Notes under the pieces: generated by a model
Databases searched by the model: none
Seen by the model: the letters and a program-made list of their open reading frames with translations, nothing else
What the model was told of the DNA's origin: nothing
From: Pseudomonadota bacterium
GTDB taxonomy: Bacteria; Pseudomonadota; Gammaproteobacteria; Burkholderiales; Burkholderiaceae_C
Reading direction: 5' to 3'
Assembly (NCBI GenBank): GCA_021808525.1
Contig: JAKBBK010000014.1
Coordinates: 1-49,626 of the forward strand
DNA: 49,626 nt
Translations under genes and position numbers: made by a program
Shown: positions 15,605 to 29,642 of the stretch, piece by piece
How positions within the stretch are numbered: position 1 is the first letter of the stretch
Layout of the letters: each line of letters starts with the position of its first letter

Positions 15605-16891
15605 TCAGGGGCGACGGTGGTCGATGCGCACGTCGACGCTGCCGCCGCGCGCCACGCTGGCGGTGCCGTAGAGATCGCCGCTGGCCGGCATGGCGTCGCC
15701 GGTGGCGGACAGGCGGGCCTCGATCTGCACGCTGGGCGCGCTCGACAGCAGTTGCGAGGGGCTCATGGAATCCGCGTCGCTCAGCTCCACCTGCAGCGGC
15801 AGCCTGGCATCGGCGCGCCTGGCGGCCGCCAGAGGCATGCGCTCGCCGGGCACGCGGGCGATCACGAACAGGGTGCGCCCCTGCGCCTGAGCACGCAGGA
15901 CGGGGGCGATGCTCACCCTCACCTGCATCAAGGCCATCGCCTGCGGGCGCGCCGGGGTGGCCGGTTCGGCCACGGAGACCTTGCGCGCCGAGGGCGCCTG
16001 CGGGGCGCTGCCGGCGCCGCCCGGCGCCGGCGCCGCGTTCTCGGCGGCGGTCAGGCCCATGCGCCGGCGCACCTGGGAGATGACGTGCTCGAGGAAGGTG
16101 GCGTCCTCGGAGCCGGCCACCACCTCGCGGCTGGCATGCTCGAGCAGGGGCAAGGCACCGCGGTCGTCGCCACGCAGCGCGTGGGCGTAGCCGGCCAGCA
16201 TCAGCGCCAGCAGGTTGTTGGGGTTGATGGCCAGGGCCTGGCGCGCCAGGCGCTCGGGCTTGCCCAGGGGGCTGCCGTTGGCGCTCATCGCCAGGGCGTC
16301 GGCGTATTCGGCCAGCCAGCGCGCATGGTGCTGCAGTTGGGGACCGACACGGCCGTAGGCGGCGGCCGCCTTGCCGAAATCGCCGAGCACGGCGTAGGAG
16401 CGGCCGAGCATGGCCCAGCCCGCGGGGTCGTCGGGATGGGCAGCCAGTTTCGCGGCCAGGGAATCGACCATCTTCTGCACCTGGCTGGGAGCCGCCGGTG
16501 CCGCCGCCTGCGTGGCGGCGGCGGGGCTCGGCGGGTTGCCGGCCAGGGCAGCCGGAGTGCCCATCAACTCATACAGCAGCCCGGCGCAGATGGGCAGGCC
16601 CAGCAGCAGGCCGGCGATGGTGGGCAGCGCGCTGGAGGCGCCGCGCCCGCGCGGCATGGGCAGGGTGTCGGCCAGCACGCGCCGCGCCAGCTCCTCGCGC
16701 GCCTGTTCATAGCGCGCCTCGCCCAGGGAGGCGCGCTCGCGCTCCAGCGCGGCCATGTCCTCGCGCAGCAGGCGCGCATTGACCGCGGCGCGGTCGACGC
16801 CGGCGCGCGGCCGCAGTCTCAGCAGGGGCAGCACCAGGATCGCCAGCACCACCGCGGTGAGCAGCGCGGCGGCAAGCAGGAAGGTGGTCAT
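15605..16891 (-). CDS. ccmI: Cytochrome c biogenesis protein CcmI
   Basis: A 428-residue membrane-bound chaperone for apocytochrome c. Two helices (about 2-25 and 90-108) flank the cytosolic loop with the coiled-coil AALERERASLGEARYEQAREELARR. A periplasmic TPR region (about 140-280; PDDPAGWAMLGRSYAVLGDFGKAAAAYGRV) and a C-terminal beta-rich domain follow. The ATG overlaps the ccmH stop as ATGA. It hands apocytochromes to CcmF/CcmH for haem attachment. Confidence 0.94.
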   Translation of the reverse strand: MTTFLLAAALLTAVVLAILVLPLLRLRPRAGVDRAAVNARLLREDMAALERERASLGEARYEQAREELARRVLADTLPMPRGRGASSALPTIAGLLLGLPICAGLLYELMGTPAALAGNPPSPAAATQAAAPAAPSQVQKMVDSLAAKLAAHPDDPAGWAMLGRSYAVLGDFGKAAAAYGRVGPQLQHHARWLAEYADALAMSANGSPLGKPERLARQALAINPNNLLALMLAGYAHALRGDDRGALPLLEHASREVVAGSEDATFLEHVISQVRRRMGLTAAENAAPAPGGAGSAPQAPSARKVSVAEPATPARPQAMALMQVRVSIAPVLRAQAQGRTLFVIARVPGERMPLAAARRADARLPLQVELSDADSMSPSQLLSSAPSVQIEARLSATGDAMPASGDLYGTASVARGGSVDVRIDHRRP

Positions 16892-17361
16892 TCGAGTTCT
16901 CCGTTGCGCGCCAGCAGGGCCTGGGCGCGTGCGAATTCAGCCGCGTCCAGCGGGGTCTCGCTGCGCCGCAGGCGAGCGCGGATGGTCAGTCCCAGCGCCC
17001 CGAAGCCGAGGGCCAGCAATACGTAGGGACCCAGCCACAGGGCCCAGGTCTCGGGGTCGAAGGGCGGGCGGAAGCGCACATAGTTGCCGTAGCGCGCGAC
17101 CAGGTAGTCGACGACCTGCTGGTCGGTGTAGCCGCGTTCGATCAGGGTGCGCACCTCGGCGCGCAGGTCCCGCGCCAGGCTGGCCTGGGAGGCGGCCAGC
17201 GACTCATCCTGGCACACCAGGCAGCGCAGGTTGCGGGTGATGGCCAGCATGCGCTGCTCGGCCGCCTCGTCGTGCGCCAGCGGGGGCGCCCATCCGGCCC
17301 AGGCGAACGAGGCGAAGGAGGCGGCCAGGGCCAGCAGGAGCATCAGGAACAGGCGCTTCAT
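16888..17361 (-). CDS. ccmH: Cytochrome c biogenesis protein CcmH
   Basis: A 157-residue periplasmic thiol oxidoreductase that reduces apocytochrome CxxCH cysteines. It has a signal peptide, then the active-site motif LRCLVCQDESLAASQA (C47, C50), a three-helix domain, and a C-terminal membrane anchor (WALWLGPYVLLALGFGALGL). It is the short form without the CcmI-like extension, consistent with a separate ccmI. ATGA overlaps occur on both sides. Confidence 0.95.
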   Translation of the reverse strand: MKRLFLMLLLALAASFASFAWAGWAPPLAHDEAAEQRMLAITRNLRCLVCQDESLAASQASLARDLRAEVRTLIERGYTDQQVVDYLVARYGNYVRFRPPFDPETWALWLGPYVLLALGFGALGLTIRARLRRSETPLDAAEFARAQALLARNGELE

Positions 17362-17891
17362 GACGACAACCTCCGGATCAGGGGCAGGATCTTGTCCTGC
17401 AGTACCCGCACGCTCAGCGGGCCGATCTGCTTGTAGACAATGTGGCCCTGGCCATCGATCACATAGGTCTCGGGTACCCCATAGACCCCGTAGTTGATGC
17501 CGATATGTCCGTCGCCGTCGCTGGCCACGATGTCGTAGGGGTCGCCGGCCTCGGCCAGCCAGTGGCGCGCGGCGACGGGGTCGTCCTTGTAGTCCAGGCC
17601 CACCAGCGGCACATGCCTGCCGTGGGCGAAGGCCAGCAGCAGCGGGTGTTCCTCGCGGCAGGACGTGCACCAGGAGGCCCACACGTTGAGCAGCCACACC
17701 TTGCCCCGGAGTTGCTGCGGGGAGAAGCTGCCCGTGGTGGGCATGAGCAGCGGAGCGTCGAATTGCGGCGCCGCCTTGCCGATCAACGGCGAGGGGATGC
17801 GGTGCGGATCGTGGTGCAGGCCGATGTCGAGCAGTGCCAGCAGTCCGGCGAACACCAGCAGGACCAGCGAAATCCTCCATGCGCGGTTCAT
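17358..17891 (-). CDS. ccmG: Thiol:disulfide interchange protein CcmG/DsbE
   Basis: A 177-residue membrane-anchored thioredoxin. The N-terminal helix is at about 5-22. The redox motif is WASWCTSCREEHP (C75, C78); CTSC is an uncommon inter-cysteine pair. The cis-proline segment YGVYGVPETYVID is typical of DsbE. It keeps CcmH and apocytochrome thiols reduced. It overlaps ccmF and ccmH by 4 bp each. Confidence 0.95.
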   Translation of the reverse strand: MNRAWRISLVLLVFAGLLALLDIGLHHDPHRIPSPLIGKAAPQFDAPLLMPTTGSFSPQQLRGKVWLLNVWASWCTSCREEHPLLLAFAHGRHVPLVGLDYKDDPVAARHWLAEAGDPYDIVASDGDGHIGINYGVYGVPETYVIDGQGHIVYKQIGPLSVRVLQDKILPLIRRLSS

Positions 17892-19828
17892 GATGCGACC
17901 ACCTCCAGGGCTCGCGCCGCGCGCCGGCCGAGGCTGCGGTAGCGCCGGTCGGCGGCGGCGGCCACGCCGCCCAGGGCCATGAGCAGCGCGCCGCACCAGA
18001 TCCAGATCACGAAGGGCTTGTAGTACACGCGCACCGCCCAGGCACCACCCGGCAGGCGCGCGCCCAGCGAGACGTAGACGTCGCGCAAGGGGCCGGTGTC
18101 GATGGCGGTGTCGGTCATTTCCATCGAGGAGCTGAAATAGTCGCGCTTCTCGGGACGCAGCACGGCCAGTTGCTTGCCGTTTCGCGACAGCTCGAACACC
18201 CCCTGCTGCGCCGTGTAATCGGGACCCGGCAGGGTCTTCACCCCCTCGAAGCGCAGGGTGTAGCCGGCCAGTCGCGTGTAGTCGCCGGGCTGCATGCGCA
18301 GGCCGCGCTCGGCCTCGTAGTGACTGACCAGCGCGACCCCGAGGATGCTCACGGCCAGACCCAGGTGGGCCAGTTGCATGCCCCAGTAACCGCCGGGGGG
18401 CATGCCGCTGCGCAGGCGCTTGCGCACTTGCTGCACCACGGCCGTCGCCAGCCACAGCGCGCAGAAGCTGCCGAGCGCCGCGCCGGCATCCCAGCGCCCC
18501 AGCGACAACGGCAGCGCGATCGCGGCCAGCAGCGCCACCAGCGCGGGCACCCGCATCGGGCGCGCCAGATCGGCCAGGCGGTCGCTACGCCAGCGCGCCA
18601 GCGGGCCGACGGCGGCCAGCAGGAACAGCGGAACCACCACCGGCACGAACACGCTGTTGAAGTACGGAGGCCCGACCGACAGCTTGCCCAGGTTCAGGGC
18701 CTCGACCACCAACGGGTACAGGGTTCCCAGCAGCACGCTGCCGGCGGCGACCACCAGCAGCACGTTGTTGCCCAGCAGCAGGCTCTCGCGAGACACGAGT
18801 CCGAAGCTTCCGCCAGGCCCGCGCCCCGGGGCGCGCAGCGCGAACAGCAGCAGCGAGCCGCCGATGTACAACGCGAACAGCAGCAGGATCATCATGCCGC
18901 GGCGCGGGTCGGTGGTGAAGGCATGCACGGAGGACAGCACCCCCGAACGCACCAGGAAGGTTCCCAGCAGGGACAGGCCGAAGGCCCCGATGGCCAGCAG
19001 CACGGTCCAGTTGCGGAAGCTGCCGCGCTTTTCGGTGACGGCCAGGGAGTGGATCAGCGCGGTTCCGACCAGCCAGGGCATGAAGGAGGCGTTCTCCACC
19101 GGATCCCAGAACCACCAGCCGCCCCAGCCCAGCTCGTAGTAGGACCAGTAGGAGCCCAGCGCGATGCCCAGGGTCAGGGACACCCAGGCGGCGATGGTCC
19201 AGGGCCGCGACCAGCGCGCCCAGGCCGCATCCAGGCGCCCGGCCAGCAGCGCCGAGATGGCGAAGGCGAAGGCCACGGCGAAGCCCACGTAGCCCATGTA
19301 GAGCATGGGCGGATGGCCCATCATGCCCGGGTCCTGCAGCAGGGGGTTGAGCGAACGCCCGTTCATGGCCGCCGGCAGCAGGCGCTGGAAGGGATCGGAG
19401 CTGAGGTGGATGTAGACCAGGAAGCCGAAGGCCACCGTGCCCAGCACGCCCAGCACCCGCGCGACCATTTCGTCGGGCAGGCTGCGCGAGAAGAAGGACA
19501 CCGCCACCGACCAGCCGCAGAGCATGAGCAGCCACAGCAGGAAGGAGCCTTCGTGGCCGCCCCAGGCGGCGCCGATCTTGTAGACGGTGGGCAGCAGGGT
19601 GTTGGAGTTCTCGGCCACGTACAGCACCGAGAAGTCATCGTGCAGCAGGGACCACAGCAGGCAGCCGAAGGCGAAGGCCACGAGCAGGAAGGTGGCGCGG
19701 GTGGCAGGCCTGGCCAGCGCGATCCACACGCGATGGCCGCGCCAGGCGCCGAGCAGCGGCAGCAGCGCCTGCACCAGCGCCACGGGCAGGGCCAGCAGCA
19801 AGGCGAAATGTCCGAGTTCGGGAATCAT
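17888..19828 (-). CDS. ccmF: Cytochrome c haem lyase subunit CcmF
   Basis: A 646-residue polytopic protein with about 15 membrane helices. The tryptophan-rich haem motif is GWGGWWFWDPVENASFMPWL, and conserved periplasmic histidines are in the flanking loops. CcmF with CcmH and CcmI attaches haem from CcmE to apocytochromes. Its presence beside a monohaem and a decahaem cytochrome is functionally fitting. It overlaps ccmE and ccmG by 4 bp each. Confidence 0.96.
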   Translation of the reverse strand: MIPELGHFALLLALPVALVQALLPLLGAWRGHRVWIALARPATRATFLLVAFAFGCLLWSLLHDDFSVLYVAENSNTLLPTVYKIGAAWGGHEGSFLLWLLMLCGWSVAVSFFSRSLPDEMVARVLGVLGTVAFGFLVYIHLSSDPFQRLLPAAMNGRSLNPLLQDPGMMGHPPMLYMGYVGFAVAFAFAISALLAGRLDAAWARWSRPWTIAAWVSLTLGIALGSYWSYYELGWGGWWFWDPVENASFMPWLVGTALIHSLAVTEKRGSFRNWTVLLAIGAFGLSLLGTFLVRSGVLSSVHAFTTDPRRGMMILLLFALYIGGSLLLFALRAPGRGPGGSFGLVSRESLLLGNNVLLVVAAGSVLLGTLYPLVVEALNLGKLSVGPPYFNSVFVPVVVPLFLLAAVGPLARWRSDRLADLARPMRVPALVALLAAIALPLSLGRWDAGAALGSFCALWLATAVVQQVRKRLRSGMPPGGYWGMQLAHLGLAVSILGVALVSHYEAERGLRMQPGDYTRLAGYTLRFEGVKTLPGPDYTAQQGVFELSRNGKQLAVLRPEKRDYFSSSMEMTDTAIDTGPLRDVYVSLGARLPGGAWAVRVYYKPFVIWIWCGALLMALGGVAAAADRRYRSLGRRAARALEVVAS

Positions 19829-20265
19829 GGCCGTAGGGTCCTCTGGGTCTGCCGCGCCTGCTCGAGGGCGTTGCGCGCCTCGGGCGGCATGTAGTTGGCA
19901 CTGTGCTTGGCCAGTACCTGGGTGGCGTGGAAGGTGCCGTGCGGCCCCAGCCTGCCCTGCACCACCACGCCGCGCCCGGGAGCGAACAGGTCGGGCAGGA
20001 TGCCGTCGTAGACCACCGACACCTGCCTGGCGGTGTCGGTGACCAGGAAGCGCACGTCGGTGCCCTGGCGTTGCAGGCTGCCCTTCTCGACCAGGCCGCC
20101 GAGCCGGAACAATCCGTCATGGGGCACCTGGCCTTCGACGATCTGCGTGGGCGTCACGTACAACTCGATGGCGCCGTTGAGGGCGTGCAGCACCAGCGCG
20201 GTGGCCACGCCCAGCCCCGCCAGGCCGGCGGCGATCAAGGCCCCGCGGCGAGCGCGCGCCTTCAT
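19825..20265 (-). CDS. ccmE: Haem chaperone CcmE
   Basis: A 146-residue periplasmic haem carrier with one N-terminal anchor helix and an OB-fold. The covalent haem-binding His is in VLAKHSANYMPPE (H121, with Y125). The start chosen (MKARARRG) overlaps the ccmD stop as ATGA; the frame is open further upstream but has no conserved sequence there. Confidence 0.96.
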   Translation of the reverse strand: MKARARRGALIAAGLAGLGVATALVLHALNGAIELYVTPTQIVEGQVPHDGLFRLGGLVEKGSLQRQGTDVRFLVTDTARQVSVVYDGILPDLFAPGRGVVVQGRLGPHGTFHATQVLAKHSANYMPPEARNALEQARQTQRTLRP

Positions 20266-20501
20266 GCCGCCTCCCGCTGCAGCGCCACCGCGAGTTCGCG
20301 TTCGCCGCCGCGCGCGCGCTCGGCGCGCTCGATGCGACGCAGCGCACCCTGCTGTTGCAGCAGACGCAGGGCTGCGCGACGCCGCAGGCGCAGCGCGAGC
20401 ACTTCGCCCGCGATCGCCGCCGCGCAGGCCCCCACGCTGCCCCACACGTACAGGGCGTAGCCGCCCATGGCGAGGAATTCCCCCGTGGAATGCCAGATCA
20501 T
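20262..20501 (-). CDS. ccmD: Haem exporter protein CcmD
   Basis: A 79-residue single-helix membrane protein that helps release holo-CcmE from CcmABC. The helix is in YALYVWGSVGACAAAIAGEVLAL, followed by a basic cytoplasmic tail. The tail is about 20-30 residues longer than in most CcmD proteins and is Arg/Ala/Glu-rich. GGAGG is 7 bases before the ATG. ATGA overlaps occur on both sides. Confidence 0.88.
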   Translation of the reverse strand: MIWHSTGEFLAMGGYALYVWGSVGACAAAIAGEVLALRLRRRAALRLLQQQGALRRIERAERARGGERELAVALQREAA

Positions 20502-21247
20502 GATGAAACCTCCATCAGGTGCCCGAGCCAGGCCGAGTCGTGCTCGCGCTCGAGGATGATGACCCTGAGTCGTGCCAGGGTCGTGGAAATGGCGTACATC
20601 CAAGCGGCGCCGGTCATCAGCAGGATGCCCGCCAGCATCGTGAGGGCCATCGACGGCGCATGGGTGAGGGAGATCGAGGCGCCCTGGTGCAGGGTGTTCC
20701 ACCACTGCACGGAGAAATAGATCACCGGGATGTTGACCACGCCCACCACCGCCAGCACGGCGCAGGCCTTGTCGGCGCGGCGCGCATCGTCGATGGCCGA
20801 GCGCAGCGCGATCTGCCCCAGGTACAGGAACAACAGGATCAGCTCGGAGGTCAGCCGGGCATCCCACACCCACCAGGTGCCCCACATGGGCTTGCCCCAC
20901 AGCGAGCCGGTGACCAGCGCGAGCGCGGTGAACATCGCCCCCGTGGGCACCAGCGCGGAGGCCATCATCCCGGACAGGCGGGTGTTGAAGGCCAGGCCCA
21001 GGGCCGACCAGCCGGCCATGACCACGTAGATGAACATGGACATCCAGGACGCCGGCACGTGCAGGAAGATGATGCGGTAGCCGTCGCCCTGGGTGGCGTC
21101 CGGCGGAGCGAGGAAAAAGCCCACCCAGACGCCGGCGACGGCCAGCAGCAACGAAGCCCCGGCGAACCAGGGCACCAGGCGCCCCGCCGGCTCGTAGAAG
21201 GTGGCCGGACTGGCGTAGCGGGTCCAGCGGTTGTTGGAGGTTTTCAT
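20498..21247 (-). CDS. ccmC: Haem transporter/lyase subunit CcmC
   Basis: A 249-residue protein with six membrane helices and the tryptophan-rich periplasmic motif WGTWWVWDARLTSELILLFLYLG. Conserved histidines are present in FLHVPASWMSM and LHQGASI. It presents haem to CcmE. It overlaps ccmB and ccmD by 4 bp each. Confidence 0.96.
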   Translation of the reverse strand: MKTSNNRWTRYASPATFYEPAGRLVPWFAGASLLLAVAGVWVGFFLAPPDATQGDGYRIIFLHVPASWMSMFIYVVMAGWSALGLAFNTRLSGMMASALVPTGAMFTALALVTGSLWGKPMWGTWWVWDARLTSELILLFLYLGQIALRSAIDDARRADKACAVLAVVGVVNIPVIYFSVQWWNTLHQGASISLTHAPSMALTMLAGILLMTGAAWMYAISTTLARLRVIILEREHDSAWLGHLMEVSS

Positions 21248-22008
21248 TCGATGGCGATCCGGACGGCGGCTGCCGCGGCGGGCGGCGCGAGGAACACCGC
21301 GACCACCAGCATGGCGCCCAGCAGCTCGAGGTATCCCGAGGGGTCCAGGCCGGCGGCCTGGGCGGTGAGCGCGCCCGCGCCGAACACCAGCGCGGGCACG
21401 TACAGGGGCAGCAGCAGCAAGGCGAGCAAGGCTCCACCACCGCGTGCGCCCAGGGTCAGCGCGGCGCCGATGGCGCCGAGCAGCGAAAGCAGCGGCGTGC
21501 CCAGCAGCAAGGCCAGCACCAGCAGGCCCAGGGCCTGCGGAGCCAGCCCGAACTGCAGGCCCAGCAGGGGGGCCAGCAGCACCAGGGGCAATCCGGCCAC
21601 CAGCCAGTGGGCGACGATCTTGCCCACCACCAGCCAGGCGAAAGGAGTCGGCGACAGCAGCATCTGCTCCAGCGTGCCGTCGGCGAAGTCCTCGCCGAAC
21701 ATGCGCGGCAGCCCGAGCAGGGTCGACAGCAGCGCGCCCACCCACAACACGCCGGGGCCGATGACCCGCAGGCGCTGCGGCTCGGGCCCGATGGCCAGCG
21801 GAAACAGGCTGGCGACCATGACGAAGAACACCAGCACGGTGGCCACCTCGCTGCGCCGGCGCAGGGTCAGCACCAGCTCGCGGCGCAGCACCCCCAGCAG
21901 CGGGCTGGTGCCCGCCACGGGCGCGCCCGCGCTCGCGTCGGGCCCGTCGGCCTCGAACACGACGTGGGGCGCCGCGCCGCGCTGAAGGGTCTCGCTCATG
22001 GGTTTCAT
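21244..22008 (-). CDS. ccmB: Haem exporter permease CcmB
   Basis: A 254-residue ABC permease with six predicted helices. The segment LGLPRMFGEDFADGTLEQMLLSP is the CcmB signature for contact with CcmA. The chosen ATG overlaps the ccmA stop as ATGA; this gives an N-terminal leader of about 30 residues beyond the usual start. An ATG 9 bases later is the alternative. Confidence 0.94.
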   Translation of the reverse strand: MKPMSETLQRGAAPHVVFEADGPDASAGAPVAGTSPLLGVLRRELVLTLRRRSEVATVLVFFVMVASLFPLAIGPEPQRLRVIGPGVLWVGALLSTLLGLPRMFGEDFADGTLEQMLLSPTPFAWLVVGKIVAHWLVAGLPLVLLAPLLGLQFGLAPQALGLLVLALLLGTPLLSLLGAIGAALTLGARGGGALLALLLLPLYVPALVFGAGALTAQAAGLDPSGYLELLGAMLVVAVFLAPPAAAAAVRIAIE

Positions 22009-22637
22009 GCGCCGAGCTCCAGGCTCTGGCCCCCGGGCAGCGCGATGGGCTGGTGGCTGGTCAGCACCGCGCTGCCACCAGCGCGCAGATGCTCCTGCAC
22101 CAGCGAGCTCACCATGTCCACGCCATCGGCGTCGAGCGCGGCGAAGGGTTCGTCGAGCACCCACAGACTGGCGCCGCGCACCAGCACCCGCGCCAGCAGG
22201 GCTCGCCGGCGCTGGCCCTGGGACAACACCCGCATGGGCAGGGATTCCCGTCCGCGCAGTCCCACGCGCCACAGGGCGGCGCAGGCGGCGCGCGGCTCCA
22301 GCGCACGACCGTCCAACGCGGCGCCCAGGCGCAGGTTCTCCAGCGCGCTCAGTTCATCCTTCACCGCATGGCGATGCCCGAAATAGGCCAGCGCGCCGCG
22401 GTAGTCCTCCCCGGCGCGAGACAGCTCGACCCCGTTCCACGCGACCATTCCGGCGTGCGGGCGGGCCAGGCCGGTGAGCAGGCGCAGCAGGCTGGTCTTG
22501 CCCGCGCCGTTGGCTCCGCGGACATGCAGCCACTGCCCAGGGTGCAGGTCGAAGCTGAGGTCCTCGAACAATGCGCGGCTGCCGCGGCGACAGCTCAGCC
22601 CGGTGGCTCGCAGTTCATGTTCGGGTACGACGTTCAT
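22005..22637 (-). CDS. ccmA: Haem exporter ATP-binding protein CcmA
   Basis: A 210-residue ABC ATPase. Walker A is GANGAGKTS, the signature region is LSQGQRRRALLARV and Walker B is WVLDEPFAALD. It drives release of haem-loaded CcmE. It is the first gene of the nine-gene ccm operon. In-frame ATGs at 22643 and 22646 are alternative starts; none has a strong ribosome site, and I chose the one giving the usual family length. Confidence 0.93.
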   Translation of the reverse strand: MNVVPEHELRATGLSCRRGSRALFEDLSFDLHPGQWLHVRGANGAGKTSLLRLLTGLARPHAGMVAWNGVELSRAGEDYRGALAYFGHRHAVKDELSALENLRLGAALDGRALEPRAACAALWRVGLRGRESLPMRVLSQGQRRRALLARVLVRGASLWVLDEPFAALDADGVDMVSSLVQEHLRAGGSAVLTSHQPIALPGGQSLELGA

Positions 22638-22887
22638 GGCCATCATCTCGAAACGACCCGGGATCGCCTGCGTCGGCGCCCATCGGGTTTCGAGACTGAA
22701 CGATAGGCAAGCGAGCATCCGCCCCCCTTGCGCGGAATCAAGCAAATCCACATTCCGACAAAAAGGACACAGGCGCGCGCGGCGACTTGCCCTGGCTTGA
22801 TCGAGCGCAAACCGGCCAGGCCCGGGCCCCTCCTAGGATCAGCGCGGGAAATCCCTTCCGGCGCCGCGCCTGCGGCAGCTCCTTGCG
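22638..22887. promoter_or_regulatory. Divergent intergenic region between ccmA and the sensor kinase
   Basis: About 250 bases separate the start of the ccm operon from the start of the sensor kinase gene, and must carry promoters for both. An A-rich stretch (CAAAAAGGACA, near 22760) is the only low-GC part. TTGATCGAGCGCAA (22797-22810) resembles half of an FNR/Anr box only. No confident promoter could be assigned. Confidence 0.4.
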
Positions 22888-24930
22888 ATGTCGATTCGAA
22901 TCCAGCCCGTGCGCGTGGTCGCCCTGTTCGCGGTGCTGGCCATCCTGGCGGTCTCCCTGTCCGTGCTGGCCCTGCTGTGGGGCCTGCGCGCGCGAGCGCT
23001 TGCACGCGACCAGCAACGCACCGACATGCTGACCAGCATGCTGGCGCGGCAGACGGCCCAGAACTTCGCGCGCAGCGACGCCACGCTTCGCACTGTCGCG
23101 GACCGCCTGGATTCCTCCTTCATCGGCCGGCTCGGGCTGGACAGCCTGCCGGTGCACCTGCTGCTGGCCGCGCATGCCCACGGCCTGGGCGAGTCCGGCA
23201 CGCTGTTCATCGTGAACCCGCAAGGACAGGTGGTGAACAGCACCCGGGGCTTCCCGGCGCCGCCCATCTCGGTGGCCGATCGCGGCTATTACCGGGCCTT
23301 CGCGCGCGAGGGCGCGCATGGCCTGTACCTCGGCGGCCCGGTGAGCAGCCGCGCCAGCGCCGAATGGACCGTGCACCTGGCCCGCGCGCTGCGCAACCCG
23401 GACGGTTCCCTGCGCGGGGTGCTGGTGGCGGGCATCGAGCGCGGGCAACTGGAATCGCTGTTCCGCTATGTGTTGCGCGACTTCGGGCGTCCGGTCGCGC
23501 TGTACCTGGCCGACGGGCGGCTGCTGGCCAGCCTGCCGCGGCGCGATTCCCTGCTGGACCAGCAGGCGCCCGAGCTCGCCGGGCTGAAACTTCCCGCGCC
23601 CGGCACCGTGCTGCGCGCCGACGTGCTGCGCAGCCGGGGCGGCCAGGGCGAGCAGGGTGACCAGTTGCTGAGCCTGGCCAGGGTGCCCGGACAGCCGCTG
23701 CTGGTGGGCGTGGAGCAGACCCGGGCGCAGACCCTGGCGTCCTGGCGCGAACTCGCCGCGCCCATCGCGCTGGGCGCGCTGCTGGTCTGCGGCTTCCTGG
23801 GGGCGGCCGCGCTGCTGCTGGGCTACGAGTTGCAGCGCGAGCAGAAGCTGGACCAGGCGCTGCGCGAGGCTGACGATCGTTACCGGCGAACCATCGATTC
23901 GGTGATGGACGCCATGGTCTCGGTCGACGCCGAGCAGCGCATCATCCTGTTCAACCCGGCCGCGGAGCGCATGTTCGGGATTCCCGCGGCCGAGGCCCTG
24001 GGCCAGCCTCTGGACCTGCTGATCCCCCCTCGCCTGCAGGGCACGCACAACGAGCACATACGGGCCTTCGCGCGTTCCGCCGTGGCCTCGCGGGACATGG
24101 CGCCGAACCGGGAGGTGCTGGGCCGGCGCGCCGACGGCAGCGAATTCCCGGTGGAATCGGCGGTGTCGCAGACCCGCATCGACGGGGCGCTGCAGTTCAC
24201 CGCGGTGCTGCGCGACGTCACCGAGCGGAGACGACGCCAGGCGGAGCTGGAGCAGATGAACCGCGAACTGCGCCGCCTGTCTACCGCGCAGCAGACCGTG
24301 CGCGAGGAGGAACGAGCACGTATCTCGCGCGAACTGCACGACGACCTGGGTCAATTGCTCACGGGTGTCAAGCTCGACCTGTCGCGCCTGATCGGGCGCT
24401 CGCGCGACGGGCGCCCGCTGAGTCCGCAGACCTTCGAATCCATGCGCCAGCTTCTGGACGGGGCGATGGCCTCGGTGCGGCGCATTTCCACCGAGCTGCG
24501 CCCGCGCATGCTCGACGACCTCAGCTTCGGCGAGGCCCTGAGCTGGCTGGCGGAGGAATTCGGCCGACGAAGTTCCATCGAGGTGCAACTGGATCTCGAG
24601 GCGGCCGCGCATGTGCGGGGAGACGAGATGTCCACCGGCCTGTTCCGCATCGTGCAGGAATCCCTGACCAATGTGGCCCGACACGCCCAGGCCACGCGGG
24701 TGCGCATTGCATTGTTCGAGCGCGAGGGCCGGCTGAGCCTGCGCATCCGCGACAACGGCCGGGGCATCGATCCGCAGCGCATCGGCTCGGGAGTCGGCTT
24801 GCTCAGCATGCGCGAGCGCGCCACCTCGCTGGGCGCCAGCCTGCGCATCCACGCCGCGCAGGGCGGCGGCACCGAGATCGAGCTGGACATGCCCCTGCAG
24901 GAGCACGCAGCCGAAGGAGAGAGGACATGA
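22888..24930 (+). CDS. Membrane sensor histidine kinase (PDC-PAS-HisKA_3)
   Basis: A 680-residue sensor. A first membrane helix (about 10-34) precedes a periplasmic PDC/dCache-type domain (about 35-290, with GTLFIVNPQGQVVNSTRG and DRGYYRAFAREGAHGLYLGGPV). A second helix (about 293-314), then a cytoplasmic PAS domain (about 325-450, YRRTIDSVMDAMVSVD...FNPAAERMFG) follows. The NarX-type kinase core has the phosphorylated His in RISRELHDDLGQ (H484), and the HATPase ends with NGRGIDPQ and GVGLLSMRERA. It overlaps the regulator gene by 4 bp. Position between ccm and the cytochrome genes suggests control of electron-transfer genes (inference). The ligand is unknown. Confidence 0.93.
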   Translation: MSIRIQPVRVVALFAVLAILAVSLSVLALLWGLRARALARDQQRTDMLTSMLARQTAQNFARSDATLRTVADRLDSSFIGRLGLDSLPVHLLLAAHAHGLGESGTLFIVNPQGQVVNSTRGFPAPPISVADRGYYRAFAREGAHGLYLGGPVSSRASAEWTVHLARALRNPDGSLRGVLVAGIERGQLESLFRYVLRDFGRPVALYLADGRLLASLPRRDSLLDQQAPELAGLKLPAPGTVLRADVLRSRGGQGEQGDQLLSLARVPGQPLLVGVEQTRAQTLASWRELAAPIALGALLVCGFLGAAALLLGYELQREQKLDQALREADDRYRRTIDSVMDAMVSVDAEQRIILFNPAAERMFGIPAAEALGQPLDLLIPPRLQGTHNEHIRAFARSAVASRDMAPNREVLGRRADGSEFPVESAVSQTRIDGALQFTAVLRDVTERRRRQAELEQMNRELRRLSTAQQTVREEERARISRELHDDLGQLLTGVKLDLSRLIGRSRDGRPLSPQTFESMRQLLDGAMASVRRISTELRPRMLDDLSFGEALSWLAEEFGRRSSIEVQLDLEAAAHVRGDEMSTGLFRIVQESLTNVARHAQATRVRIALFEREGRLSLRIRDNGRGIDPQRIGSGVGLLSMRERATSLGASLRIHAAQGGGTEIELDMPLQEHAAEGERT

Positions 24931-25577
24931 ACCGCATCGAAGTGCTGCTGGCCGACGACCACGCGATCATCCGCAACGGTCTGCGCAACATCCTGGAAGA
25001 CACCGAGGACCTGCGCTGCGCCGCCGAGGCCGACAACGGCCACGACCTTCTCGAGCGGGTGCGCCAGCGAGACTGGGGGCTGCTGATCCTGGACCTGTCG
25101 ATGCCGGGACGCAACGGCCTGGACCTGATCCGCCTGGTCAAGGCGGAGCGGCCGCAGCTGCCCATCCTGGTGTTCACCATGCACCAGGAGGAGCAGTACG
25201 CGGTGCGCGCGATGCGCGCCGGCGCCTCGGGTTATCTCACCAAGGAGGTGGATGGAGACGTGCTGCTGGCGGCGATCCGCAAGGTGGCCCGCGGCGGGGT
25301 GTACGTCAGCTCCAAGCTGGCGGAGCTGCTGGCCGCGGACGTGTCACGCCCGCGCGACGTGCCGGCGCACACCCTGCTGTCGAATCGCGAATTCGAGATC
25401 TTCCAGCGCATCGTCGACGGGCGCAGCCTGACCGACATCGCCAACGAGTTGAGCCTGAGCGTCAAGACCATCAGCACCCACAAGTCGCACATCCTCGAGA
25501 AGATGGGGGTGGAGCGCGACGTGGACCTCGTGCGCTACGCGCTGCAGCACGGGCTGGCCGACGCCACCATGGACTGA
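24927..25577 (+). CDS. NarL/FixJ-family response regulator
   Basis: A 216-residue regulator with receiver domain (acidic pocket ADDH at 9-12, phospho-acceptor D56 in LILDLSMPG, Lys in YLTKEV). The C-terminal LuxR-type helix-turn-helix (LSNREFEIFQRIVDGRSLTDIANELSLSVKTISTHKSHILEKM) binds DNA. Its start overlaps the kinase stop (ATGA), marking it as the cognate partner. A terminator hairpin follows, and then the monohaem cytochrome gene. Confidence 0.95.
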   Translation: MNRIEVLLADDHAIIRNGLRNILEDTEDLRCAAEADNGHDLLERVRQRDWGLLILDLSMPGRNGLDLIRLVKAERPQLPILVFTMHQEEQYAVRAMRAGASGYLTKEVDGDVLLAAIRKVARGGVYVSSKLAELLAADVSRPRDVPAHTLLSNREFEIFQRIVDGRSLTDIANELSLSVKTISTHKSHILEKMGVERDVDLVRYALQHGLADATMD

Positions 25578-25806: not shown

Positions 25807-26148
25807 ATGAAAGCCCTCACCCTGCACAGTCTCGCCGCCGTCGCAACCGCCCTGGCCCTCGCCGTGCCCGCGGCCCATGCCGCGGAAAAAGCCGACATCG
25901 CCGCCGGCAAGGCGCTGGTCCAGCAACACGCCTGCTTCACCTGCCACGCCATCGAGGGCACCAAGGTCGGACCGAGCTTCACCGACCTGGCCGCCAAGTT
26001 CGCCGCCATGGGCGAAGGCAACGCCGAGAAGGCCCTCGACCAGGACGTGCACGCCGGCGTCCAGGGAACCCCGATGCCGGCCAACCCGACCCTGAGCCAG
26101 GCCGAGCTGGATCAGATCGCCGACTGGATCCTGAGCCTGAAGAAGTAG
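25807..26148 (+). CDS. mtoD: Monohaem class I cytochrome c (MtoD-like)
   Basis: A 113-residue periplasmic cytochrome. The signal peptide ends at AAHAA (about 26). One haem site, CFTCH (C43, C46, H47), and a probable Met ligand in GTPMPAN (M90) indicate a small His/Met cytochrome of the c551/c552 group. It is the first gene of a three-gene cluster with a decahaem cytochrome and an outer-membrane barrel. In Sideroxydans the mto cluster includes a small monohaem cytochrome, MtoD, thought to accept electrons from MtoA. The symbol rests on position and size; the class I family call is certain. The ribosome site is weak. Confidence 0.8.
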   Translation: MKALTLHSLAAVATALALAVPAAHAAEKADIAAGKALVQQHACFTCHAIEGTKVGPSFTDLAAKFAAMGEGNAEKALDQDVHAGVQGTPMPANPTLSQAELDQIADWILSLKK

Positions 26149-26191
26149 GCCGGAGTCCGCCATTCCCTCTTCCGTCCCTAGGGAGCACAAG

Positions 26192-27205
26192 GTGCAGATC
26201 ACCCAGAAAGTCATTGTGGCTGCCGCGATCCTGCTCGGCAGCTGGGCCGTCGCGGCGCATGCCGCCGACCCCATCCGGCTGCCGGCGCTGGGCGCCTCGC
26301 AGCAAGAGCCCGTCTCGGCCGCGCAGAGCTCGAAGGAGCACCTGGCGCAGGACGCCAAGTGCACGCGCTGCCACGACGAGAACGAGTCCAAGCCGGTGCT
26401 GGCGTTCTTCCAGACCCCCATGGGGGTCACGGGGGACCCGCGCACTCCCACCTGCGAGAGCTGCCACGGCCCGAGCCTGGCGCACCTGCGCGGACCCGTC
26501 AACGGCAAGATCGCGCCGCCCGACGTGGTGTTCAACCGCACGGGCCCCTACTCCGAGTCCAGCGCGTCCAACCGCGCCGAGGCCTGCCTGGCCTGCCACT
26601 CCGGCACCCAGCGCACGCATTGGGAGGGCAGCCCGCACCAGGTCAACGGCCTGGCCTGCAACGACTGCCACAAGGTGCACGCCGCGGTCGACCCCGTGCG
26701 CACCAAGGGGCTGCAGCAGACCGTCTGCTACACCTGCCACAAGGACCGGCGCGCGGACTTCATGAAGCTGTCGCACCACCCGGTCCCCGAGGGCAAGATG
26801 ATGTGCTCGGATTGCCACAATCCGCACGGCTCGGTCGGCCCCTTCCTGATGAAGAAGGCGACCATCAACGAGACCTGCTGGACCTGCCACGCCGACAAGC
26901 GCGGCCCCTTCCTGTGGGAACACGAGCCGGTCACCGAGAAGTGCACCAACTGCCACAACCCGCACGGCTCGAACATCGCGCCCCTGCTCAAGGCCCGCCC
27001 GCCCTTCCTGTGCCAGGAATGCCATGACGGCCCGCACCAGAGCAAGAACATGTTCGGCCCCGGCGTCGCCGGCCCGTCGACCGCAACCGGATTCAGCGCC
27101 ATCCCGGGTAGCCCGGCAGCAGGCGGCGTGGGCGAGGGCTGCATGAACTGCCACATCATGGTCCACGGTTCGAACAACCCCGCCGGCGCGTACCTGCAGC
27201 GCTAG
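26192..27205 (+). CDS. mtoA: Periplasmic decahaem cytochrome c, MtrA/MtoA/PioA/DmsE family
   Basis: A 337-residue exported cytochrome with exactly ten CxxCH motifs, at cysteines 57, 88, 132, 156, 179, 205, 229, 251, 274 and 317. The spacing and the repeated CHNPHGS phrases match the DmsE/MtrA family. The signal peptide ends near AAHA (24). MtrA-type proteins sit inside an MtrB-type barrel and carry electrons across the outer membrane. The start is GTG with GGGAG 7 bases upstream. The barrel gene follows after 22 bases. Because no surface cytochrome (MtrC/OmcA type) is present, the cluster is closer to MtoAB/PioAB Fe(II)-oxidation conduits than to metal-reduction Mtr systems (inference). Confidence 0.93.
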   Translation: MQITQKVIVAAAILLGSWAVAAHAADPIRLPALGASQQEPVSAAQSSKEHLAQDAKCTRCHDENESKPVLAFFQTPMGVTGDPRTPTCESCHGPSLAHLRGPVNGKIAPPDVVFNRTGPYSESSASNRAEACLACHSGTQRTHWEGSPHQVNGLACNDCHKVHAAVDPVRTKGLQQTVCYTCHKDRRADFMKLSHHPVPEGKMMCSDCHNPHGSVGPFLMKKATINETCWTCHADKRGPFLWEHEPVTEKCTNCHNPHGSNIAPLLKARPPFLCQECHDGPHQSKNMFGPGVAGPSTATGFSAIPGSPAAGGVGEGCMNCHIMVHGSNNPAGAYLQR

Positions 27206-27227
27206 AGATCCAGACAAGGAGCACGAG

Positions 27228-29642
27228 ATGACACACCGCAAGACCGTGCTGCGCGCCAGGCCCATCACCATCGCCCTGCGCGCCGCCCTAGCCACCCTCG
27301 CCGTAGCCTCGGTCGCTCCGTCGGCCATGGCCGACGGAGCCCTCGACAAGTTGATCAAGCCGACCAACACCATCGACATCGGCGGCATCTACCTCAACCA
27401 GAGCTCGGACCTGTTCGGGCAATACAACGGACTGGAGAACTCGGGCCCGACCCTGCTGGGCGGCTTCCATCTGCGCGGAGGCGACGGCTACGGCCAGCAG
27501 CCCGGAGCGAACACCTGGTTCGTGCAGGGCAGCAATCTGGGCACCACCTCGCGCTCGGTGTCCGGCGGCATCGCCAACCAGGGTACCTGGAGCCTGGGCC
27601 TGAGCTTCGACCAGCTGCGCAACTACGGGGGCGATTCGCTGACCACGGCACCGGGCAGCTTCCAGACCCCGCTGCTCGGGAACCCCGGCGGCAACGTGTA
27701 CACCCTGCCGTCCACCTTCGGCTACATCAGCACCGCCGGAACCGGCACGCAGGGCCTGACGGCCGACCAGCAGCAGTTCTTCCACACCGACCACCTGTAC
27801 GTGCAGCGCAACACGACCCGTCTCGACGCCAGCCACCAGCTGAAGATGGGGTGGGACCTCACCTTCCACTGGACCAGCATTCGCGAGACCGGAGCGATCC
27901 TGGCCTCGGCGATGGCCGATTCGCTGACCGGCGGCATCATCACGCAGTCGGGAACCCGGTTCACGTCGAATCTCGGCGGGCAGAAGACCCTCGGCCTGCC
28001 CTATCCGACCCAGTACAAGACCAACAACTTCCGCCTGGCCCTGAACTGGGCGGGGGAGAAGGGATTCTTCACCGGGGCCTACTACGGCTCGATGTTCCAC
28101 GACGACTACAGCGGCGTGTGGTTTCCCAACCCCTACCGCAACAACGTCACCACGGGGGCCGTGGCCGGCAGCACCTATCCGCTGGACGTCGAGTCGACTC
28201 CGCCCAGCAACACCGACAACGAGCTGCAGTTCAGCGGCGGCTACCACCTGGATCCGAAGACTCTGCTGGTCGCCGGGTATTCCTACGGGCGCAACACCCA
28301 GAACATGTCCTACGCCTACGAGCCGGCGCAGATCGGAACCGGCCCCACCAGCCTGGGCGGGCTGCCCGTGGGCTCGCTGGACGGCCTGGTGGTCACCCAG
28401 CACGCCAACTGGAGCCTGACCCACCAGACCACGAAGGCCGTGACCCTGTCGGCCGGCATGATCTACAGCAAGCGCGACAACCAGACGCCCTCGTATCTGT
28501 ACAACTTCGAGGCCCCCGACAGCGGCCCCGGGACCGACTGGTTCAGCGTGTACAACATTCCGATGAGCAACAGCCACCTGCAGACCAGGCTGGGCGGCGA
28601 CTGGCGCTTCCTGCCGGGGCAGCGCCTGCACCTGGCCTTGCAGAACGAACGCGTGGAACGTTGGTGCGACAGCAATGCCTACGCGGCCAACCTGGTGACG
28701 CCCAACGATCTGTACACCGGCTCGGGGGTGTCGCCCACCGGCTGCGCCGCGGTGCCGCAGAGCCGGGAGAACACCGTCAAGCTGGACTACTACCTGCGGC
28801 CCCACGGCAGCCTGAACTTCCTCGCGGGCGTGAAATGGGCCAACCGCAAGGCCACCGTCAACACCTCGTACTACAACCCGATCACCGACATGAACAGCGG
28901 TGAGGCCGACATGCCCGGCTGGGTGGCCTTCTTCGATGCCTCGCGCAGGCAATTGCAGGGGCACTTCGGGGTGAACTGGATGGTCAACAGCGAGTTCACC
29001 ATGAGCCTGGACGGGGCGGTGGGCAACGACCAGTACGGCGACTCGCTGCTGGGCCGGCAAAGCGGCCACGACGCCACGGTCGACCTGGAAGGCGACTACC
29101 AGCTGGGCAACCAGCGCAGCGCCAGCGTGTTCGCCACCTGGCAGCGCCAGGCCACCGACGGGGTCTCCGCCGCCAGCGGCGCAGGCTTCAACTGGGTGAC
29201 CGGCCTGCGCGATCAGGCGCTCACCCTGGGAGCGGCGTTCAAGCAGGCGGGGCTGATGGACAACAAGCTCAGCCTGATGGCGAGCGTCTCGTACTCGGAG
29301 GACACCAACAACGAGAACACGGCCGTCGTGCCGGGCAGCGGCAGCAAGGCCGCGGCCACGGCGGTGAGCTGCGCCACGCCCAGCACCAGCGGCTACACCT
29401 GCGGCAACGTGCCCGACCTGAAGACCAAGATCACGCGCCTGGACCTGGCCGCCAAGTACAAGCTCAACCCGCAAAGCGCCCTGCACTTCGGCTACATGTA
29501 CGCCCGCTACGACGTGAACGACTACATGTACCTGGCGCAGATGATGGGCTACACACCCACCAGCGTGCTGCCCTGGAACGAGCAGAACCCGACGGTCTCG
29601 GTCAACGCGGTGTACGCCGAGTACCTGTACTCCTTCCAGTGA
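27228..29642 (+). CDS. mtoB: MtrB/MtoB/PioB-family outer-membrane beta-barrel
   Basis: An 804-residue outer-membrane protein with a signal peptide (cleavage near AMA, residue 35) and beta-strand-rich sequence to the C-terminus. It ends in aromatic residues (AEYLYSFQ), as barrel proteins do. Its place directly behind a decahaem MtrA-type cytochrome, and its length, fit MtrB/PioB, which sheaths the cytochrome. It has no N-terminal CxxC like that of Shewanella MtrB. Its four cysteines occur in two pairs in loops (RWCDS/TGCAA and VSCAT/YTCGN), possibly forming disulfides. AAGGAG lies upstream of the ATG. Confidence 0.9.
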   Translation: MTHRKTVLRARPITIALRAALATLAVASVAPSAMADGALDKLIKPTNTIDIGGIYLNQSSDLFGQYNGLENSGPTLLGGFHLRGGDGYGQQPGANTWFVQGSNLGTTSRSVSGGIANQGTWSLGLSFDQLRNYGGDSLTTAPGSFQTPLLGNPGGNVYTLPSTFGYISTAGTGTQGLTADQQQFFHTDHLYVQRNTTRLDASHQLKMGWDLTFHWTSIRETGAILASAMADSLTGGIITQSGTRFTSNLGGQKTLGLPYPTQYKTNNFRLALNWAGEKGFFTGAYYGSMFHDDYSGVWFPNPYRNNVTTGAVAGSTYPLDVESTPPSNTDNELQFSGGYHLDPKTLLVAGYSYGRNTQNMSYAYEPAQIGTGPTSLGGLPVGSLDGLVVTQHANWSLTHQTTKAVTLSAGMIYSKRDNQTPSYLYNFEAPDSGPGTDWFSVYNIPMSNSHLQTRLGGDWRFLPGQRLHLALQNERVERWCDSNAYAANLVTPNDLYTGSGVSPTGCAAVPQSRENTVKLDYYLRPHGSLNFLAGVKWANRKATVNTSYYNPITDMNSGEADMPGWVAFFDASRRQLQGHFGVNWMVNSEFTMSLDGAVGNDQYGDSLLGRQSGHDATVDLEGDYQLGNQRSASVFATWQRQATDGVSAASGAGFNWVTGLRDQALTLGAAFKQAGLMDNKLSLMASVSYSEDTNNENTAVVPGSGSKAAATAVSCATPSTSGYTCGNVPDLKTKITRLDLAAKYKLNPQSALHFGYMYARYDVNDYMYLAQMMGYTPTSVLPWNEQNPTVSVNAVYAEYLYSFQ

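Follow-up and report, generated by a model that had tools for sequence, protein, structure and literature searches.

A three-gene outer-membrane electron conduit is encoded in the 49,626-nt stretch of DNA analyzed here (contig JAKBBK010000014.1 of assembly GCA_021808525.1, hereafter the window), which comes from a member of the Burkholderiales. It consists of genes for a monohaem cytochrome c, a decahaem cytochrome c and a barrel protein of the outer membrane. Our principal conclusion, to which we give about even chances, is that a c551-like cytochrome links this MtoAB-type conduit with the cytochrome c/oxidase branch of the respiratory chain, and that the link does not run through a quinone module of the NapC type. 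Of all steps in extracellular electron uptake, the least settled is how an outer-membrane conduit hands its electrons over to the inner membrane, and the genus of the window offers a natural test of it: the decahaem gene was found in 16 of its 28 sampled genomes, no NapC/NirT partner in any of them, and the carrier in the periplasm is of a changed type.

The first line of evidence is the absence of two expected partners. Searches of the 28 genus genomes, of which 21 have a completeness of 90% or more and a contamination of 5% or less, gave no match either to OmcA/MtrC (TIGR03507, 0/28) or to NapC/NirT (PF03264, 0/28), the family that includes CymA and ImoA; the seven genomes listed at 99–100% completeness likewise have neither. 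The initial annotation of the locus had remarked that no MtrC/OmcA-like surface cytochrome and no CymA-like quinone oxidoreductase lie near it and had proposed a genome search for cymA. Both remarks hold at the locus and now extend to the whole genus sample, which is also consistent with its suggestion that the inner-membrane partner is elsewhere or of a new kind. Among the 49 genomes of named relatives, NapC/NirT matches with the best E ≤ 1e-60 occur in 32, only weak matches in six and none in 11. The latter, whose completeness is not given, are L019 from the window genus, four genomes of a group that we call Rhodanobacter-type, five Methylococcales and one Hydrogenophilus; the fifth Rhodanobacter-type genome, L065, has a weak match. 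This group comprises two Rhodanobacter (L029, L065), one member of the Lysobacteraceae (L078) and two genomes assigned only to Proteobacteria/Pseudomonadota (L028, L030). A gene with four CXXCH motifs (197–229 codons) is situated 3′ of the barrel gene in 19 of the named loci.

The second line of evidence is the monohaem protein, for which the earlier label MtoD was not borne out. MtoD is a bis-histidine cytochrome with the distal ligand His95, in surroundings without a proline-rich sequence (PMC4412085; here and below, articles are cited by PMC number from excerpts). His95 is absent in all 25 monohaem rows of the window genus (15 plus 10 named ones, from two overlapping sets), and a shorter segment with a c551-like Met motif (e.g., PMPANP) is found in its place. 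The MtoD-type His is kept in 44 of the 47 upstream monohaem rows of other bacteria, including the Rhodanobacter-type and Methylococcales loci. Of the three rows without it, L029_6160 is a spurious overlapping frame, L052_4171 an unrelated cytochrome encoded upstream, and L066_9365 a protein of the Met type. Among proteins of known structure, the window monohaem scores 55.5 bits with a c555 trimer construct and up to 47 bits with cytochromes c551, slightly more than the 39.6 bits with MtoD (4xxl). Since His95 is gone and the c551 matches are slightly above those to MtoD, the operon position is, on sequence grounds, kept while the protein in it is replaced or remodelled; the Met motif predicts His/Met ligation of its haem. 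Such ligation often goes with a high potential. Isoelectric points calculated after crude trimming are 5.1–6.5 for the monohaem proteins of the window and two genus relatives, 8.6–9.3 for those of Sideroxydans, Polaromonas and Limnohabitans, 6.6 for Methylobacter and 9.0 for L030, with no general acid signature across the three conduit proteins. A possible second case of carrier change is L066, a betaproteobacterial metagenome-assembled genome (MAG) with a Met-type upstream monohaem protein and a weak NapC/NirT match.

The decahaem protein itself is of the MtoA kind. From 101 rows we built a quick tree (94 rows) and a careful tree (68 rows), leaving out 7 and 33 rows, respectively (near-duplicates, short or partial sequences, long branches); Rhodopseudomonas PioA is in neither. 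Both trees bring the window genus and the Rhodanobacter-type group together. In the careful tree this grouping has support 100/100, and a 97/97 branch joins both groups to Sideroxydans sp. L056, where the gene upstream matches MtoD (4xxl) at 195.9 bits. Proteins from Dms (reductase) and Mtr (surface decahaem) loci, labelled by eye from open reading frame size, haem count and first residues, split off behind a 99/95 branch. The MtoAB-type kinship proposed in the initial annotation is thereby upheld, and by sequence the decahaem of the window genus is closest to the Rhodanobacter-type conduits. A single clade of the groups lacking CymA (window genus, Rhodanobacter-type and Methylococcales) had a support of 96 in the Shimodaira–Hasegawa-like approximate likelihood ratio test in the quick tree, with two extra rows inside. 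It was not recovered in the careful tree; when forced, it was not rejected, with a log-likelihood higher by 8 and a p-value of 0.655 in the approximately unbiased test (p-AU).

Both larger proteins match those of a known outer-membrane pair. Nine histidines outside the CXXCH motifs are kept in at least 97% of the 68 decahaem rows, against ten distal ligands expected for ten haems. In the search against the Protein Data Bank, the decahaem has a sole match at E ≤ 1e-8, the MtrA chain of Shewanella baltica MtrAB (6r2q_A, 5.8e-65), and 6r2q is also the sole match of the barrel sequence at E ≤ 0.001. An AlphaFold2 model of the barrel, made from 30 sequences, has a mean predicted local distance difference test score (pLDDT) of 69; among its 338 structural matches with E ≤ 0.001, 6r2q_B stands first (E 3.1e-39, TM-score 0.71/0.87). 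The earlier assignment to the MtrB/PioB type is in agreement with this match and with those to TIGR03509 and PF11854, and the decahaem would sit inside the barrel as one complex. Decahaem-barrel pairs are doubled side by side in L034 (a Rhodocyclaceae MAG), L052 (a betaproteobacterial MAG) and L069 (Ramlibacter albus).

A sensor kinase and a NarL-type response regulator are encoded upstream of the conduit and probably control it. Within the genus, each of the 16 genomes with the decahaem gene has a kinase match at E ≤ 1e-100, as against two of the 12 without it (Fisher p 5e-6); in these two exceptions the kinase gene lies on a contig that stops at most 0.8 kb past it. Homologues of both proteins are found upstream of the decahaem gene in 25 of the 44 named loci having at least 4.2 kb of upstream sequence. 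Seven of these loci belong to the window genus; the remaining 18 (from 37 loci outside it) include Polaromonas, Limnohabitans and Ramlibacter. The homologues are present in three of the five Rhodanobacter-type loci, and divergent in two of these three. In contrast to the window, no such pair was found upstream in Sideroxydans sp. L056, nor in four Methylococcales loci. Our literature search on mtoA and two-component systems returned no paper with mtoA among the matches listed. Being common to a number of relatives, the pair offers a handle on the signal that the conduit answers.

We propose the following route. Electrons would travel between the surface of the cell and its periplasm through the decahaem protein in its barrel, and in the periplasm the c551-like monohaem, putatively His/Met-ligated, would stand in for MtoD. 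Since the genus searches gave no quinone module of the NapC/NirT type, the entry point is most likely at the level of c-type cytochromes: electrons would meet the chain there, by way of haem-copper oxidases and, if quinones must be reached as well, a putative bc1 complex, without passing through a CymA or ImoA. The upstream regulatory pair would control the whole unit. Haem-copper oxidase subunit I (COX1) is present in all 28 genomes, with three matches in that of the window. A bolder and more doubtful version, which we put forward tentatively, is that the whole genus carries a rewired MtoAB system, in which the quinone module was dropped, the bis-His MtoD gave way to a c551-like His/Met protein, and the outer membrane was wired straight to cytochrome c and oxidase under a dedicated two-component system. 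If true, extracellular electron uptake would here be of a type that does not depend on quinones.

Several observations weigh against this scheme. Firstly, the Rhodanobacter-type and Methylococcales loci keep the MtoD-type His though their genomes have no strong NapC/NirT match, so that the change of carrier is not accounted for by the loss of CymA alone, and the two events are not strictly coupled. Secondly, PmcA of Sideroxydans is a His/Met cytochrome with a potential of −143 mV on the quinone side (PMC13390432), and for this reason a high potential of the window monohaem is something that we infer. Thirdly, the window genome does carry a distant homologue of a multi-transmembrane inner-membrane protein that adjoins conduits elsewhere. 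Finally, the linkage of kinase and conduit may stem from joint gain or loss of one DNA stretch, which would give the same pattern, and regulation is hence suggested by linkage.

As to the direction of electron flow, kinship to MtoA leads us to slightly favour an inward course, with Fe(II) or reduced minerals as the presumptive source. The tree does not settle the matter because MtoA and PioA form no function-specific clade (PMC8805035). The reverse course, in which the conduit would discharge respiratory electrons to Fe(III) or another acceptor outside the cell whenever oxygen runs low, is unlikely. In its favour, a Methylobacter population carrying a related locus was enriched on a poised anode, where the current depended on methane, and its authors proposed that electrons are transferred outward (PMC13322032). 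The distribution of the RuBisCO large subunit cuts both ways. Its presence in 23 of the 28 genus genomes speaks against outward flow, whereas it was not found in G000 (the window MAG), G013, G014, G015 and G021, and its absence from G000, G015 and G021 speaks for outward flow and weakens a simple lithoautotrophic reading for the window species; the close relatives G023 and G025 do carry it, and the window MAG is 90% complete. There is no link between RuBisCO and the conduit (13/16 genomes with the decahaem vs. 10/12 without). At low pH, by textbook thermodynamics, a low-potential decahaem would have a strong acceptor in Fe(III) but a poor donor in Fe(II), which speaks for the outward course; the habitat is presumably acidic, going by sample names. 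For MtoA, a potential range of about +100 to −400 mV is given (PMC13390432). Against outward flow stand the position of the decahaem on the MtoA side of the tree and the lack, in all 28 genomes, of both an OmcA/MtrC-type protein and a NapC/NirT-type quinol dehydrogenase to drive it.

A further alternative concerns the partner rather than the direction. In the Methylococcales and Rhodanobacter-type loci (5/5 of each), the barrel gene is followed by a gene for a protein of 241 or 373–386 aa with one CXXCH motif and several hydrophobic segments. The members tested gave no accepted match in Pfam or NCBIfam, and the genomes of these loci have no strong NapC/NirT match (a weak one in L065). In the window locus such a gene does not adjoin the barrel, but a distant homologue (155 bits) lies on another contig of the same genome (locus L157). 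This divergent protein might be the missing partner, a role proposed in Methylobacter for the adjoining gene, making the system a split version of that four-gene conduit; we rate this possibility as unlikely. In its favour, 24 of the 28 genus genomes have a homologue, the 11 genomes listed for other genera in the family have none, and in G027 (likewise, by eye, in G001) the homologue follows a cydAB-like pair. However, it does not track the decahaem (13/16 genomes with it, 11/12 without), the window copy is surrounded by genes resembling ubiA, glmU and glmS, and in the tree the genus homologues form a long-branched clade of their own, remote from the operon-linked ones. Across the phylum, sampled with 398 genomes, homologues occur in 63, namely 57 of a family of another class (f39, genomes of 1.2–3.1 Mb), three of family f59, the window genome and two others of its order; f39 has no decahaem match over the cut-off. 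Families f39 and f59 are presumably Zetaproteobacteria. With no co-occurrence in the genus and a remote clade, the protein was set aside as a dedicated partner of the conduit.

Members of the multi-transmembrane family adjoin not only decahaem conduits but also a bc1-like operon (L209), clusters of the hydrogenase type (L202, L212) and a cydAB-like pair (L160, L162), all neighbours being named by eye except cydB and glmU in L160. The family has the look of a general hub protein in respiration. In the Rhodanobacter-type loci, a further small one-haem protein is encoded 3′ of the multi-transmembrane gene, giving a five-gene set. An AlphaFold2 model of the multi-transmembrane protein, based on nine rows, was of low quality, with a mean pLDDT of 53.7, and was not used.

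The suggestion that the genes form a DmsE/DmsF-type module for an extracellular reductase is hardly credible: the TIGR03508 model passed by the decahaem does carry the DmsE name, but no reductase gene is seen alongside, and the phylogenetic check proposed in the initial annotation rejects placement in the DmsE clade, a tree with the window and Rhodanobacter-type groups forced into a Dms grouping being worse by 233 log units (p-AU 3e-46).

The three conduit genes have exactly the positions, order and ten-haem count given by the initial annotation, and they are listed with the other features in Table 1. Haem motifs arising by chance do not explain them, as 11 of the 12 CXXCH motifs in the six frames of the window fall inside two genes (ten and one, respectively) and the genes are kept in relatives. 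According to a Pfam scan of the window, the conduit is flanked by the regulator genes and, directly downstream of the barrel gene, by one for an isochorismatase-type hydrolase. The window genome is a MAG in 144 contigs. Directly upstream of the regulatory pair lies a ccm (cytochrome c maturation) operon, in which CcmI and CcmF were identified by profile or sequence search and the remaining genes by eye. A CcmF-like gene upstream of the conduit was also seen by eye in L019 and L168, and in L125 (genome G311, of another family in the same class) a decahaem-barrel pair of a remote clade is about 3 kb or less from one (by eye). A plasmid collection gave one decahaem match, from Photobacterium (38.7%).

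Table 1. Positions of the conduit genes, the regulatory pair and other features discussed in the text. Positions without a prefix refer to the window.
Feature	Position	Strand	Details
Monohaem cytochrome c, class I, c551-like, predicted periplasmic	25807-26148	+	113 aa; one CXXCH; PF00034 (Cytochrom_C) 43.2 bits
Decahaem cytochrome c, DmsE/MtrA family, MtoA side	26192-27205	+	GTG start; 337 aa; ten CXXCH; TIGR03508 285.9 bits (cut-off 192.2)
Outer-membrane beta-barrel, MtrB/PioB family, expected decahaem sheath	27228-29642	+	804 aa; TIGR03509 316.2 bits (cut-off 240.05); PF11854 293.2 bits
Sensor histidine kinase (Cache-like, PAS, HisKA_3, HATPase), probable conduit regulator	22888-24930	+	Pfam domains; dCache match below cut-off
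NarL/FixJ-type response regulator	24927-25577	+	PF00072 and PF00196; 4-base overlap with kinase gene
ccm operon	15605-22751	-	
Multi-transmembrane monohaem family members	G000:C29:2094-2771; L028:13580-14701; L059:13474-14199		
Small one-haem protein of Rhodanobacter-type loci	L028:14892-15419; L030:14957-15391; L065:14859-15296; L078:14968-15399; L029:12000-12446		PSCyt1 just over cut-off in L028
L066 locus with Met-type upstream monohaem	L066:9365-9658; L066:9920-13147		

The bare mtoABD arrangement is already known. A cluster without an inner-membrane gene has been published for Thiomonas sp. FB-6 and FB-Cd (He et al., 2017; PMC5566968), and the window resembles it in this respect. The window genus may itself be Thiomonas, as RuBisCO and a G+C content of 61–72% in the stretches retrieved would suggest. 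There, the monohaem protein is named MtoD, whereas the window gene in that position lacks the MtoD His95, and the section describing these clusters contains neither a genus-wide NapC/NirT test nor an analysis of the monohaem ligands, unlike the present work. What goes beyond the known cluster is the non-MtoD monohaem protein, the kinase/regulator pair that tracks the conduit, and the multi-transmembrane inner-membrane gene, which is distant and does not track it. In the literature searched, seen in part, we met no report of genus-wide NapC/NirT absence, of a changed monohaem ligand or of the regulator link.

Other conduits differ from that of the window in one component or another. The Methylobacter locus, described in June 2026, likewise has monohaem, decahaem and barrel genes together with no MtrC reported, but its four-gene set includes an inner-membrane monohaem protein with four transmembrane helices, which in the window genome is represented by the distant homologue on another contig (PMC13322032). 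The monohaem proteins of the Methylococcales loci L054, L058, L059 and L062 keep the MtoD-type His, unlike those of the window genus. With MtrAB(C) of Shewanella baltica, the window shares a sequence match of the decahaem and the barrel fold of 6r2q; the differences are that no surface decahaem was found in the window genus and that proteins of Mtr context fall behind a separate branch of the tree. PioABC of Rhodopseudomonas has a porin and decahaem pair of the same superfamily, in which the decahaem has a long N-terminal extension that the window protein lacks (PMC10654088). The Pfam scan found no PioC, a high-potential iron–sulfur protein (HiPIP), adjoining the conduit; HiPIP genes elsewhere in the genome were not searched.

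The Mto system of Sideroxydans lithotrophicus ES-1 likewise has an MtoA-type decahaem, an MtoB-type barrel and a small cytochrome in the same cluster; the differences are the bis-His MtoD and the ImoA/CymA-type protein, for which no counterpart was found in the window genus (PMC13390432). In the model proposed in 2026 for Sideroxydans, MtoD may lead to a terminal oxidase and PmcA to ImoA (PMC13390432). The window genus would hold only the MtoD/oxidase branch of this scheme, served by a different carrier.

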